A DNA stretch of 40,566 nucleotides, taken from assembly GCA_021846845.1 (NCBI GenBank), contig JAJZWB010000016.1, positions 1 through 40,566 of the forward strand, given 5' to 3'. The DNA is from Actinomycetes bacterium. Its GTDB lineage: Bacteria; Actinomycetota; Thermoleophilia; Solirubrobacterales; Solirubrobacteraceae. Each line of letters begins with the position of its first letter. The first letter of the stretch is position 1. The notes under the pieces were generated by a model that saw only the letters and a list, made by a program, of their open reading frames with translations, searched no databases and had not been told where the DNA came from. This document shows positions 1 to 11,787 of this stretch, one piece after another. The position numbers and the translations under genes were made by a program.

Positions 1-911
1 CCGGTCACGGCGGCGTCGCCGCTCTCTCCAACCGCGACGCACAGGCCGGCCGACGGGCACGAGACGCCCGTCATCGGCTGGAGGGGGTGCAGCCGATCGA
101 TCGCGTCGACCGTCCTCCACGCCGACGGCCCGCCGGTCGGATCCGCGGACACGTAGGCGTTGCCGCTGTCGTCGACCGCGACGCACAGGCCGGCGCTCGG
201 GCAGTCGACCGCACTGGCCGAAAGGGAGGTGGTCGTCGTCCACGCACCGGAGCCGCCGGTCGGGTCGGTCGAGGTGGAGAAGCCGGTCCCGACCGCGACG
301 CACAGGCCGGAGCCCGCGCACGCGACGCCGTTCAGGGAGTTGCCGCCGTCGACCGTCGCCGTCTGCCACGCGCCTGGGCCGCCGGTCGGATCCGTGCTGG
401 TCAGCACGTCGCCGCTGGAATCGACCGCTACGCAGAGCGAGGTGGTCGTGCATGTGACGCCGTTGAGCACGTTCCCGGGGTCGACCACGGTATGGACCCA
501 GGCGCCGGCGCCCCCCGTCGGGTCCGTGGACGCGTAGATCGAGCCGTCGAGACCATCGGTCACCACGCACAGGGAGATCGTCGGACACGAGATCGCGTCC
601 AGGCCGGCATCCGCGAAGCCGGGGTTGACGAGGCTCGTGGTGGTCCACGCGCCGCTGCCGCCGGTCGGGTCGGTGGCCGTCACGACCTCCCCGTAGGCGT
701 CTATCGCGGCGCAGAAGGTCGCGGTCGGGCAGGAGATTCCGTTGAAGGCGCTTCCATGGCCGATCGGCACCGGCGCCGACCAGGAGACCGCTCCGGCATG
801 CGCGGTAGCGGCCGCGAGCGCCCAGACGGCGAACGCGAGCAGCGGGGCGAGCCAAATCGCCCTCGTCCTCCCGGCGAGGAATCCGAAGCCCGTGCGAGCT
901 CGGCCTTGCAC
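1..911 (-). CDS. Secreted CX5C-repeat protein, 3' end outside window
   Basis: A reading frame open from the GTG at 911 to the window edge (about 303 codons, C-terminus missing). It was found by translating the minus strand. The N-terminus has a basic stretch and then a hydrophobic segment ending in A-T-A-H-A, a good signal peptide. The mature part is a run of roughly 40-50 residue repeats. Each holds C-P-(S/T)-x3-C, then (V/A)-A-V/I-D, a G, then a D-P-T-G-G-x-x-A-W block, e.g. CPSAGLCVAVDDSGNAYVS. At least six repeats are visible. Each has two cysteines five residues apart, which fits a disulfide in every repeat of an exported beta-propeller-like protein. The same CX5C-AVD core recurs in the protein at 3282-5255, so the two are paralogous in architecture. 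Function is unknown. The start is not backed by a clear ribosome-binding site. Confidence 0.8.
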   Translation of the reverse strand, partial: MQGRARTGFGFLAGRTRAIWLAPLLAFAVWALAAATAHAGAVSWSAPVPIGHGSAFNGISCPTATFCAAIDAYGEVVTATDPTGGSGAWTTTSLVNPGFADAGLDAISCPTISLCVVTDGLDGSIYASTDPTGGAGAWVHTVVDPGNVLNGVTCTTTSLCVAVDSSGDVLTSTDPTGGPGAWQTATVDGGNSLNGVACAGSGLCVAVGTGFSTSTDPTGGSGAWTTTTSLSASAVDCPSAGLCVAVDDSGNAYVSADPTGGPSAWRTVDAIDRLHPLQPMTGVSCPSAGLCVAVGESGDAAVT

Positions 912-1156
912 AGGCGGGACGATATACCCGACGACGCCCGATCGCCAACGTGCTCGGCGATCGGCGCCGCGGACGAGCCGCGACCCCCCGCGCGAATTCA
1001 GGACGGTGCCGCCGACCGCCAAGCTGTCGCGCCGCGGATTGCGGGTCCAGCACCGGGTTCGCGCCCAGCCCGCGGTCCCGGCGGCCTCGCGGCAGACTCG
1101 CGTGCCGGCCTTGAGATCGAGGCCCGATTCAGCGCCTCGGACCGTGCGACCGACCG

Positions 1157-3281: not shown

Positions 3282-5255
3282 CTAGCTTGATCCCACCAGG
3301 GCGCGGCCGGCGATGTCGACGGCGACGCACTGGGACATCGAGGAGCAGGACACGCCGAACAACGAGTCCGCCCCCGGGATCCGCGTGAGGCTCCAGCTTC
3401 GCGGGATGGCCGGGTCGCCGCCGATCGCGGCGCCGAGCCCGTCGACCGCGATGCAGAACCCGGCCGACGGGCAGGCGATCGCGTTCAGCGCCCAGGCGCC
3501 GCGGATCCTGACGCTGCGAGCGCCGCGCGGGGAGCGGGGGTCGAACGTCGTGACGTCGTCCTCGCCGACGGCGGTGCAGCTGGAGGCCGTCGGGCACGCG
3601 ATCGCGCTCAGCGCGGCGTCCGCGACGGTCACCTCGACGGGGGAGCCCGGCGAGCGAGGGTCGAAGGTCACCTCGCGACCGTTGTCATCGACCGCCGTGC
3701 ACTGGCGAACGGACGGACAGGCCACCCCGATGAGCGTCGGAGCCCCGCTCACCTGGAATCGGCTCTCGCGCCCCGGCGAGCGCGGGTCGAAGGTCACCGC
3801 GTTCCCGCTCTGGTCGATCGCCGTGCACTGATCGACGGTCGGGCAGGCGATTCCGTCGAGGGTGTTGTCGATCACGCCGGCGAAGCTGTTGACGACCGTC
3901 TGGAACCTGTCCTGCCCAACCTGCAGCACGGACGGCGCCGGTAGGAACGTGAACACCTGGCTGTTGCCGAAGTCGACCCCGGTCTGGCCGGTCGTGGGAT
4001 CGATCGTGGCGCGCGTTCGCCGGCGCGGGGCGCCGGGGTCGAAGGTGACCTCGCGGCCGGCCAGGTCGACCGCGGTGCACTGCGAGGTCGACGGGCAGGC
4101 GAGCGCGTACGGGACCCCGTTGTCGATCGCGATGGGCGAGGCGGCGAGCCGCCGGCGCGGGTTGAACGTCACGGCCGCGCCGGAGGCGTCGACCGCGGTG
4201 CACTGGTGGCCCGAGGGGCAGGCGACGTCGTACAGGACGTTGCCCGTGTCGATCAGCGCCCGGGCCAGGCGTCCGTGGGGTCCGCCGGCGGCCGGGTCGA
4301 AGGTCACCTCGCCGCTGCTGTAGTCGACCGCGGTGCACTGGGACGCGGACGGGCAGGCGATGCTGCGCACGAACCCGGGGTCGATCGCGCGGACCCGTGC
4401 GCCTCTCGGCGAGCGCGGATCGAACGTCACCTCACGACCGGCGAAGTCGACCGCGGCGCACCGGGACGGGGACGCGCACGCGAGCGTCGCCAGACCGGAG
4501 CGGTCGACGGCGACCGGGACGGCGGCGCTCGGCGACACGGGATCGAACGTCAGCACGCGGCCGGATGTGTCGACGGCGACGCATTCGCTCGCCGACGGGC
4601 ACGCGACATCGAACAGCATGTGGCCCGTGTCCAGGACCACGCGTGAGGCTGCTCTCGGCGCGCGGGGGTCGAACGTGACCTCTCCCCCATCCTCGTCCAC
4701 GGCGGCGCACCGCCGAGCGGACGGACACGCGACGGCGAACAGGACATGGCCCGCGTCCACCGCCACGGGACCAGCGCTCCCGGGCGAGCGCGGGTCGAAG
4801 GTGACCTCGTCCCCGTAGTAGTCGACGGCGGTGCACTGACGGGCGGACGGGCACGCGACACCGAACAGCCGGCTGGCGTCGACGGATCGAAGCGTGGCTC
4901 GCCCAGGCCGACGGGGGTCGAAAGTCACCTCGCCGCCGCCCTCGTCGACGGCGGTGCACTGACCGACGGTGGGACACGCGACACCGAACAGAGCGCCGAC
5001 GGTGCCGGGGTCGACGGCCGCGGGAGCGGCCGCGGCGGCCGAGCGAGGGTCGAACGTGACCTCCTGTCCGTTGCCGTCCACCGCGGTGCACTGGGACACG
5101 GCCGGGCACGCCACGCCGAGCAGGGTCTGAATGCCGGTCCTGTCGATCCTCAGCGGCCCGGACGAGGAGGACGCAAGCGCTCGACCGGGCAGGCCCAGCA
5201 GCGCGACCGCCACGCCCACGAGGGCTAGACGGAGCGCCGGCGCACGCGGCTTCAT
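3282..5255 (-). CDS. Secreted protein with 14 CX5C-AVD repeats
   Basis: A 657-residue protein starting at the ATG at 5255, which opens a clear signal peptide (MKPRAPALRLALVGVAVALL, cleavage near A-L-A). The open frame runs 29 codons further up but adds nothing signal-like. The mature chain consists of 14 units of about 43 residues, e.g. GVACPSARQCTAVDYYGDEV followed by T-F-D-P-R-S-P. All 14 keep both cysteines at CX5C spacing, even degenerate ones (CASPSRC, CPTASSC, CSSMSQC). Units 1-9 and 10-14 are separated by a linker of about 55 residues that may hold a decayed unit. Fourteen units would suit two seven-bladed propellers. Function is unknown; an extracellular binding or scaffold role is a guess. 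The partial gene at 1-911 is its closest relative here. Confidence 0.85.
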   Translation of the reverse strand: MKPRAPALRLALVGVAVALLGLPGRALASSSSGPLRIDRTGIQTLLGVACPAVSQCTAVDGNGQEVTFDPRSAAAAAPAAVDPGTVGALFGVACPTVGQCTAVDEGGGEVTFDPRRPGRATLRSVDASRLFGVACPSARQCTAVDYYGDEVTFDPRSPGSAGPVAVDAGHVLFAVACPSARRCAAVDEDGGEVTFDPRAPRAASRVVLDTGHMLFDVACPSASECVAVDTSGRVLTFDPVSPSAAVPVAVDRSGLATLACASPSRCAAVDFAGREVTFDPRSPRGARVRAIDPGFVRSIACPSASQCTAVDYSSGEVTFDPAAGGPHGRLARALIDTGNVLYDVACPSGHQCTAVDASGAAVTFNPRRRLAASPIAIDNGVPYALACPSTSQCTAVDLAGREVTFDPGAPRRRTRATIDPTTGQTGVDFGNSQVFTFLPAPSVLQVGQDRFQTVVNSFAGVIDNTLDGIACPTVDQCTAIDQSGNAVTFDPRSPGRESRFQVSGAPTLIGVACPSVRQCTAVDDNGREVTFDPRSPGSPVEVTVADAALSAIACPTASSCTAVGEDDVTTFDPRSPRGARSVRIRGAWALNAIACPSAGFCIAVDGLGAAIGGDPAIPRSWSLTRIPGADSLFGVSCSSMSQCVAVDIAGRALVGSS

Positions 5256-8949: not shown

Positions 8950-11787
8950 ATGGCCATCGTGGACGCCGCCCGCGAGCCGGAGCCTGACGATCGACGACCG
9001 ATCGGCTGGGGCGGGCGCACCCTGCGCGAGATGCTTGAGGAGTCCGAGCGGCTGCTGGAGCAGACGGGCTCCTACCAGGGGCTCGACGGCGAGCTCGCGC
9101 TCAAGGACGAGGACCCGATCGGCTACGAGAAGCTGTTCGCGCGCCTGCGGGGCGGCCTCGTGTCGGCCCGCGAGACGGCGCTGAACATCTCGGCCTCCCC
9201 GATCGTCCGTGAGCTCGGCGAGCTGTGCTTCGCGCTGTACACGCCGGAGGGCGACTCGATCGCGCTCTCGACGGGGATCATCGTCCACGTCCACACGATG
9301 TCGGACGCGATCAAGTTCATGGTCCGCAACGGGTGGGAGCAGAACCCGCGGATCCGGCCCGGTGACATCTTCGCAAACGACGATCCGGTGATCGGTGACG
9401 TCCACAACGCCGACGTGCAGACCTTCGTCCCGATCTTCGACCCGGGCGGGTCGGGTGAGCTGGTCGCCTGGGCGGGCGGTGTCACTCACGTGCTGGACAT
9501 CGGCGCGTCCACCCCCGGGGGGGTTCCCGTCGGACCGACGAACCGGCTGGAGGACGGCATCGACCTGCCGTGCATGAAGATCGGCGAGGGCGACGAGCTC
9601 GCGCAGTGGCACCTGCTGCGCTGCAGCAAGCGCTCCCGCGCGCCGATGTACTACCTGCTGGACGAGCGGACCCGCCTGGCGGGGTGCCACATGGTCAGAG
9701 ACGCGGTCGAGCGGGTGATCCTGGAGGAGGGCCTGGACCGCTTCAAGCAGTTCTCAAGAGAGGTGATCGAGGACGGTCGCCGCACCTTCAAGGCTCGGAT
9801 CCGCGAGATGACGGTCCCGGGCCGCTACCGCGCGGCGACGTTCATGGACGTGACCTTCGCCGACAAGCAGCAGCTGCCGGCCCGGGCGCGGCGCGACTTC
9901 ATGATGCACGGGCCGTTCGAGGTGCGGATCGGCGGCGACGGAGACTACGCGCTCGACCTGGAGGGGACCTCCGCCTGGGGGTGGCACTCGATGAACTGCA
10001 CCCCGTCGGGGATGCAGGGCGCGATCTGGGTGCAGTTCACCCAGACGCTGATCTGCAACGACAAGGTCAACGACGGAGCCTACCTCGCGCTGCAGACGAA
10101 CTTCCCGGAGGGCACGGTCGCCAACCTCGGCGACGCGGAGGGCTCGACGGGGATCGCCTGGGCGTTCCTGCAACCGGCCTTCACCAGCTTCCCCAGGACC
10201 CTGTCACGGGCACTGCAGGCGCGCGGCTTCATCGAGGAGGTGATCGGCTCCTACTCGGTGTCGGGCAACGTCGTGCAGGGAGGGGGCATCGACCAGTACG
10301 GCAATTCGTCGGCGATCATGAACTTCGAGATCGCGGCTCAGGGCATGGGTGCGATGTACGTGCTCGACGGCACCGACACCGCGGCCGCGATGTTCAACCC
10401 TGAGGGCGACGCCGGTGACGTCGAGATGTGGGAGCTGATCTGCCCGATGGTCTACCTGTCACGGCGCCTGAAGCCGAACACCGCGGGACCGGGACGCCAT
10501 CGCGGCGGCGCGAGCTTCGAGTCGCTGCAGATGGTGTCGGGCACGCCGTTCTGGGAGCTGCAGAACCTCGGGACCTCTCGTGTGTTCAGCGCGCAGGGGC
10601 TGTTCGGTGGCTATCCGGGATCGTGCGCCTACGTGCACAACATCAAGCGCAACGACCTCGCCGCGCGCGCCGCTCGGGGAGACGCCTATCCGGTCGCCGA
10701 CGGCGACTTCGACGCGCCCGCGCTGATGGCGATCGACGGCGATCGCACCTACAAGCAGGACAACTTCACGCTGCTGGAGCCGTTCGCCGACGGCGATCTC
10801 TACCTGTCGGTGATGAAGGGAGCGCCGGGGCTCGGCGACCCTCTCCTGCGCCGGCCCGAGGCGGTGGCCGAGGACGTCGCGGCGGGCCTTCTGGTCGCGC
10901 GCTTCGCCGAGTCGATCCACGGTGTCGTGCTGTCGCGGGACGGAGCGGCCGACTCGGAGGCCACCGAGATCAGGCGCGCCGCGCTCCGCGGCGAGCGGCT
11001 TGACCGGTCCTGCCCCGTACGCGAATGGTGGGCCCGGGAGCGCGAGCGCGTGCTGCGCGGCGAGATCATCGAGCCGGTCCGGATCGCCTACGCGGAGTCG
11101 ATGAAGCTGTCGGCGACGTGGGCGGCCGAGTACCGCGGCTTCTGGGACCTGCCTGAGGACTTCCAGTACCAGGCGCCCACGCCGACGGTTAGGGCGGCCG
11201 CGGCGCAGCCGGGGCGGATCACGCCTGAGGAGTCGGCCGACCGCTTCCTGGCCGCCTCCAGGGTGGCTCGCGTCCCCCCGCCGCGCGTCGCGGGTCACCC
11301 GCTTGAGCCCGAGACGCTCGGGGCGCTGCTCGACGAGCGCCTCCCGCGATCCGAGGTGCTCGCGATCCAGTCCGCCTACAAGGACGCCGGCCGGTTCGAC
11401 ACCTGGCTTGAGGTGCTGCAGGCGCGGGTGCCCTATCCGGATCCGATCGTGCTGCCGGCCGGCGAGGGCCTGAACATCGTCCGCCGGCAGGCCGACGGCG
11501 CGCTCGTGATCCGCTGCGACTGCGGGCACGACTTCTGCCGCCCCGAACGCAACTGGAAGCTTGCGGCCGTGATCCGGGTTCGTGGCGACGAGGGCTCGAT
11601 GCTCGAGATCTACCCGCGATTCGCGCACGCCGACCCCGAGTGGATGGAGCTTCGCGAGTTCCTGTGCCCCTCGTGCGCCCGACTGCTGGAGACCGAGGCG
11701 GTCGCGCCCGGATACCCCGTGGTGCACGACTTCCTCCCCGACCTGGAGGGCTTCTACAGCGGCTGGCTGGGGCGCCCCGTGCCCTGA
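8950..11787 (+). CDS. Acetone carboxylase-like alpha-gamma fusion subunit (hydantoinase B family)
   Basis: A 945-residue protein with GAGGAGGG just upstream of the ATG. Residues about 1-760 are an alpha subunit (AcxB/HyuB family), with the conserved stretch F-A-N-D-D-P-V-I-G-D-V-H-N-A-D (about 141-155) expected to lie near the metal site. After a linker, residues about 783-945 match the whole acetone carboxylase gamma subunit (AcxC). They hold C856-D-C858-G-H860-D-F-C863, then C906-P-S-C909, a zinc-binding set, and end in G-F-Y-S-G-W-L-G-R-P-V-P. In characterised enzymes alpha and gamma are separate genes of an (alpha beta gamma)2 complex; here they are one chain. No separate gamma gene is present nearby, so the enzyme probably has two polypeptides. 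The reaction would be ATP-dependent carboxylation of a ketone. Confidence 0.88.
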   Translation: MAIVDAAREPEPDDRRPIGWGGRTLREMLEESERLLEQTGSYQGLDGELALKDEDPIGYEKLFARLRGGLVSARETALNISASPIVRELGELCFALYTPEGDSIALSTGIIVHVHTMSDAIKFMVRNGWEQNPRIRPGDIFANDDPVIGDVHNADVQTFVPIFDPGGSGELVAWAGGVTHVLDIGASTPGGVPVGPTNRLEDGIDLPCMKIGEGDELAQWHLLRCSKRSRAPMYYLLDERTRLAGCHMVRDAVERVILEEGLDRFKQFSREVIEDGRRTFKARIREMTVPGRYRAATFMDVTFADKQQLPARARRDFMMHGPFEVRIGGDGDYALDLEGTSAWGWHSMNCTPSGMQGAIWVQFTQTLICNDKVNDGAYLALQTNFPEGTVANLGDAEGSTGIAWAFLQPAFTSFPRTLSRALQARGFIEEVIGSYSVSGNVVQGGGIDQYGNSSAIMNFEIAAQGMGAMYVLDGTDTAAAMFNPEGDAGDVEMWELICPMVYLSRRLKPNTAGPGRHRGGASFESLQMVSGTPFWELQNLGTSRVFSAQGLFGGYPGSCAYVHNIKRNDLAARAARGDAYPVADGDFDAPALMAIDGDRTYKQDNFTLLEPFADGDLYLSVMKGAPGLGDPLLRRPEAVAEDVAAGLLVARFAESIHGVVLSRDGAADSEATEIRRAALRGERLDRSCPVREWWARERERVLRGEIIEPVRIAYAESMKLSATWAAEYRGFWDLPEDFQYQAPTPTVRAAAAQPGRITPEESADRFLAASRVARVPPPRVAGHPLEPETLGALLDERLPRSEVLAIQSAYKDAGRFDTWLEVLQARVPYPDPIVLPAGEGLNIVRRQADGALVIRCDCGHDFCRPERNWKLAAVIRVRGDEGSMLEIYPRFAHADPEWMELREFLCPSCARLLETEAVAPGYPVVHDFLPDLEGFYSGWLGRPVP

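Follow-up and report, generated by a model that had tools for sequence, protein, structure and literature searches.

A reverse-strand gene in the window, the whole 40,566-nucleotide stretch of contig JAJZWB010000016.1 analyzed here from a member of the Solirubrobacteraceae, encodes a 657-residue protein made of a signal peptide and 14 repeat units, each with one pair of cysteines spaced as CX5C. We propose, with a probability of about 0.75, that this protein is an exported, disulfide-hardened tandem of two beta-propellers, built from a derived Ycf48/Asp-box blade and acting as a non-enzymatic binding scaffold. The unit is a variant of the known Ycf48/Asp-box propeller type, and the proteins carrying it form a large, uncatalogued family in soil actinobacteria. 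The features of the gene are as follows.

3285 to 5255, reverse strand: gene for the 657-residue secreted 14-unit protein, with its stop codon at 3282 to 3284
5172 to 5255, reverse strand: signal peptide, residues 1 to 28, with cleavage after ALA, set by eye on the sequence
4272 to 5171, reverse strand: predicted first seven-bladed propeller, closing strand and units 1 to 7, from the AlphaFold2 model and PDB matches
3285 to 4271, reverse strand: predicted second seven-bladed propeller, units 8 to 14 and the insert, from identity to the first half and the domain profile
3876 to 4001, reverse strand: cysteine-free 42-residue insert between units 9 and 10, from alignment A1; missing in close paralogues

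Repeat anatomy and export

The CX5C motif occurs in all 14 units, and these pairs account for every one of the 28 cysteines in the exported part; a 14-fold period with such complete pairing is far beyond chance. The sequence-only reading of this stretch had also placed AVD and TFDP in every unit, which proved too strict: 12 of the 14 units have an exact AVD, with unit 10 reading AID and unit 12 reading AVG, and 11 of the 14 have an exact TFDP, with TFNP in unit 8 and no TFDP in units 13 and 14. Successive units are spaced by 41 to 45 residues. Only the step from unit 9 to unit 10 is longer, at 84, owing to the insert, which that reading had missed. The insert is lacking in paralogues L009, L010, and L011, although these likewise have 14 units. 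One stretch of it (VDFGNSQVFTFLP) looks like a degenerate unit without cysteines.

The second half of the array (units 8 to 14) is 46% identical to the first in alignment A2, and a profile of seven-unit domains matches it over positions 9 to 300 of 303. A search for whole-propeller duplication gave no peak of identity at a lag of seven units. The last unit has only three strands, and the missing strand comes from the N-terminal segment before unit 1.

The coordinates 3282 to 5255 given earlier are correct, comprising the coding sequence and its stop codon, and the description of the protein as secreted also holds. The reading frame may start at GTG 5342, and the ATG at 5255 yields the 657-residue protein with a standard signal peptide (MKPRAPALRLALVGVAVALLGLPGRALA, followed after the cleavage site by SS). 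A hydrophobic stretch ahead of the first unit is present in 61 of 66 complete family members, compared with 78 of 462 control frames, and the genome encodes VKOR.

Counting in sevens and the predicted fold

Among complete frames examined with the unit profile, most had either 7 units (26 frames) or 14 units (19 frames), and one had about 21. The cysteine pairs tell the same story, numbering 7 in 34 of 79 arrays and 14 in another 19 (53 of 79 together); many of the other counts differ by one from 7 or 14, and contig ends cut some arrays. The counted arrays are related and hence not independent draws, and they were drawn from several genera and families. The clustering at 7 and 14 is explained by a ring fold with seven blades and would not be explained by an open repeat rod.

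AlphaFold2 modeling was done for units 1 to 7 only, with a five-row alignment whose rows included the second half of the protein, both halves of L016 (a 14-unit relative from a Solirubrobacterales metagenome-assembled genome), and the other family member in the window. The model is a closed seven-bladed propeller (predicted local distance difference test score [pLDDT], 84.4; predicted template modeling score [pTM], 0.85) in which strands A, B, C, and, where assigned, D occur seven times and the last blade, A-B-C, is closed by a short N-terminal strand. Modeling of the whole protein without an alignment reached a pLDDT of 35, and a PDB search with the single window sequence gave no match. With the units 1 to 7 model as the query, Foldseek returned 1967 matches at an E value of ≤0.001, including the Ycf48 structure 5ojr_D (E value, 1.6e-12; template modeling score, 0.73), and VIA-align matched a WD40 domain with a Z score of 33.4 over 281 residues and a root mean square deviation (rmsd) of 2.4. 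Matches from the two programs run end to end on seven-bladed propellers, with Z scores of about 33 and rmsd values of 2.2 to 2.8. The earlier suggestion of two tandem seven-bladed propellers is thus supported by the closed model, the structural matches, and the unit counts in relatives, and we have very little doubt about the predicted seven-bladed fold. The second disc would be closed like the first, with strand D of unit 7 serving the three-stranded unit 14.

Cysteine pairs

The 79 arrays hold 1526 cysteines, only 14 of which have no partner, and 691 of the 756 pairs have the X5 spacing. With the cysteine positions masked in training, a profile found zero units with only one of the two cysteines; the "no, yes" cells of its table are alignment end effects, and the units printed there carry both. 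The single cysteine-free unit that scored above 4 with this profile, in L122 (VSFANALRGFAVGEGGEI / LHGVSFANALRGFAVGEGGEIISF), is a plain Ycf48-type blade with F and G at the two cysteine positions and the same spacing between them. One unit of L121 also lacks both cysteines. The two residues are therefore jointly present or absent, as a disulfide predicts.

In the model, one cysteine of the pair sits in strand A and the other in strand B of the same hairpin (residues 22 and 28; strands 17 to 24 and 27 to 32). Strand A is the innermost strand of a propeller blade. Paired conservation and hairpin position together would fit intrablade disulfides formed on export, and we consider structural disulfides highly probable; on each disc, seven such bonds would encircle the central channel at one face. 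The "up to 14 disulfides" of the sequence-only reading stand as far as one hairpin pair per blade and joint gain or loss are concerned, while bond formation is what these patterns suggest.

A probable derived Ycf48/Asp-box blade

None of the propeller models in Pfam and NCBIfam matched the window protein, including those for WD40, RCC1, Kelch, and YVTN/NHL (none at an E value of ≤1); the sequence-only reading had likewise not recognized the protein as WD40, RCC1, Kelch, or YVTN. It is absent from the PSII_BNR (PF14870) matches at an E value of ≤1, and a search of its own genome with that model returned nothing above the cutoff. A connection to a described propeller family emerged all the same, indirectly and through intermediates: relatives with CX5C units tie the protein to the Ycf48/Asp-box (BNR) propellers, so it can no longer be said to resemble no described family.

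Four such relatives, L136, L071, L073, and L122, pass the PF14870 cutoff. L136 belongs to the taxonomic family of the window organism and combines seven CX5C units with canonical Asp-boxes such as TSDGGRTW and a signal-peptide-like stretch; it scores 44 bits against PSII_BNR (cutoff, 27), matches the Ycf48 structure 8am5 by phmmer at 4.4e-7, and matches the window protein by BLASTP at 2e-11. The unit profile recovers L071 at 3e-61 and L073 at 8e-41, which score 81 and 97 bits, respectively, with PSII_BNR; L071 also matches 2xbg at 1e-7. In both (L071:636-4457 and L073:494-4264), a phosphoesterase domain (PF04185) precedes about 14 CX5C propeller units. As relatives that combine CX5C with Asp-boxes pass PSII_BNR and match Ycf48 structures, the unit reads as a divergent, cysteine-stapled Ycf48/Asp-box blade, and the window protein is best called a divergent relative of these propellers, placed outside PF14870 by the cutoff of that family. 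The Asp-box motif proper (S-x-D-x-G-x-T-W in the C-D hairpin of several blades) does not occur in the window units, which read TFDPRSPG there.

A profile of 43 seven-unit domains picks up the Pizza designs at 3.6e-7 and the PknD propeller at 0.0028; a shared period may explain both matches. The Tachylectin-like model (PF14517) does not list the window protein, and relatives that match it score below its cutoff of 29.8 bits (for example, 14.2 and 18 bits). The CX5C propeller family escapes most models of Pfam and NCBIfam, and our literature search, which covered part of the literature, found no paper describing it.

Proposed structure and role

We hypothesize that the exported protein would form two tandem seven-bladed propellers in which each 41- to 45-residue unit contributes blade strands A to D, with the ring closed by the N-terminal strand and the last three-stranded unit. 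Within each blade, a disulfide would span the A-B hairpin from strand A to strand B, giving seven per disc and 14 in total; the cysteine pair would take the place of a phenylalanine/glycine pair at the same spacing in the Ycf48/Asp-box (BNR) blade and would be oxidized upon export, VKOR being encoded in the genome. Its most probable job would be that of a rigid extracellular binding or adhesion scaffold, made in many paralogous versions. Ig-like, InlB-B-like, and PASTA domains accompany the propellers in some relatives, in keeping with a surface role, and a non-enzymatic binding function is what we favor, with less assurance than we give to the fold or the disulfides.

Several points weigh against this interpretation. 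The alignment behind the model is shallow and partly derived from the protein itself; the model covers the first half alone, and the second half carries an insert; no ligand, partner, or conserved gene neighborhood was found; and the genome is a draft in 219 contigs.

Alternative explanations

Fourteen blades could in principle close into one large ring. Unit 7 runs into unit 8 without a linker, and the missing identity peak at the seven-unit lag would suit such a ring, but the commonest class of relatives has exactly seven pairs, a seven-unit half closes on its own in the model, and the natural propellers described to date range from 4 to 12 blades (PMC8458387). We therefore regard a single ring as very improbable. 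Slightly less remote, though still improbable, is the idea that the cysteines serve as metal ligands or redox-active thiols rather than as structural disulfides. Twenty-eight cysteines at a strictly conserved spacing could bind metal, and zinc finger and heavy-metal models do score on the whole protein; no stretch passes alone, however, and the totals are sums of 14 weak matches. Apart from the pair, the unit profile conserves neither Cys nor His, the cell that exports the protein has VKOR, and units that lack the whole pair are plain hydrophobic blades instead. The top-scoring Pfam models for the window protein (IRF-2BP zinc finger, PCA1 HMA, and VP17 barrel) were rejected, as each total adds up 14 weak repeats without one passing stretch.

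An extracellular enzyme such as a glycosidase also deserves consideration, since many Asp-box propellers act as glycoside hydrolases and GH74 enzymes join two seven-bladed propellers in tandem (PMC2716378). Against this, no glycosidase or other enzyme model in Pfam or NCBIfam matches the window protein, the conserved positions recur in every unit and are read as structural, and where relatives do carry an enzyme, it is a distinct phosphoesterase domain adjacent to the propellers. We consider an enzymatic role unlikely and retain the disulfide-hardened binding scaffold as the better explanation.

Distribution and genomic context

The 3.7-Mb genome of the window organism is itself rich in the family, with 20 tblastn matches at an E value of ≤0.001 in about ten other genes. 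One of these lies in the window:

3 to 1022, reverse strand: second, truncated family gene with a signal peptide and six units; its seventh unit and a C-terminal domain lie on contig C51

The start of the window (contig C44, positions 1 to 64) and the end of C51 share 64 bases with a single mismatch, so C44 and C51 very probably adjoin. On contig C29 of the same genome (L014 and L074), an open frame of 10275 codons places a seven-unit family propeller amid long low-complexity stretches and is a candidate giant surface protein.

Within the class, 40 of 399 genomes hold relatives, and profile matches that contain CX5C units extend beyond it into the wider phylum; plasmid, phage, and viral collections yielded none. 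In some genomes two members lie side by side (L051, L065, and L120), and L052 has two runs of units with a TGA between them; local duplication and decay may both operate in the family.

The neighboring genes encode a D-serine dehydratase-like enzyme, a PucR-type regulator, and a hydantoinase/acetone-carboxylase-like pair, with no evident link to the propeller gene, and a scan for promoters and terminators returned nothing. In this neighborhood, a 945-residue frame (8950 to 11787, forward strand) fuses Hydantoinase_B to an acetone carboxylase gamma-subunit domain; a Hydantoinase_A gene and the PucR-type regulator gene lie next to it.

Implications and comparison with known propellers

If our interpretation is true, an abundant, unannotated family of exported actinobacterial proteins joins the propeller map, the Ycf48/Asp-box blade has been rebuilt for extracellular life with a disulfide replacing one hydrophobic/glycine contact, and naturally stapled repeat scaffolds are gained. 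More speculatively, a full ring of intrablade disulfides might harden the inner strands across an Actinomycetota-wide family, so that secreted recognition discs vary in their loops on a locked frame, and the rings could even be a redox-controlled switch; we offer this extension as a tentative idea that is more doubtful than our main proposal.

Among known systems, Ycf48 (PSII_BNR, PF14870; 2xbg, 5ojr, and 8am5), a photosystem II assembly factor, shares the seven blades and the strand-by-strand layout of the unit. Where a Ycf48-type blade has F and G, the window protein has its cysteine pair; it also lacks the Asp-box, forms two tandem propellers, and receives no PF14870 score, and a photosystem role would not be expected in its source organism. 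The Asp-box (BNR) propellers, which include the GH74 hydrolases and sortilin/Vps10 (PMC2716378), offer a parallel in the tandem arrangement of GH74, whereas the C-D turn of the window protein lacks the conserved G-x-T-W and no enzyme model matches it. PfCyRPA of Plasmodium falciparum resembles the proposed scaffold as a non-enzymatic exported propeller, with a sialidase-like fold and five disulfides, each within one blade (PMC5349852); it differs in being eukaryotic, in having six blades, and in leaving one blade without a disulfide. In WRAP and other highly repetitive propellers (PMC9218822; 7bie and 7big), 14 blades fold as two seven-bladed propellers, but WRAP is a recent amplification of near-identical blades, whereas the window blades are divergent and match no WD40 model. 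A disulfide per blade (PfCyRPA), 14 blades as two propellers (WRAP), and the blade type itself are thus already known, and what is new is their combination in a large bacterial family.
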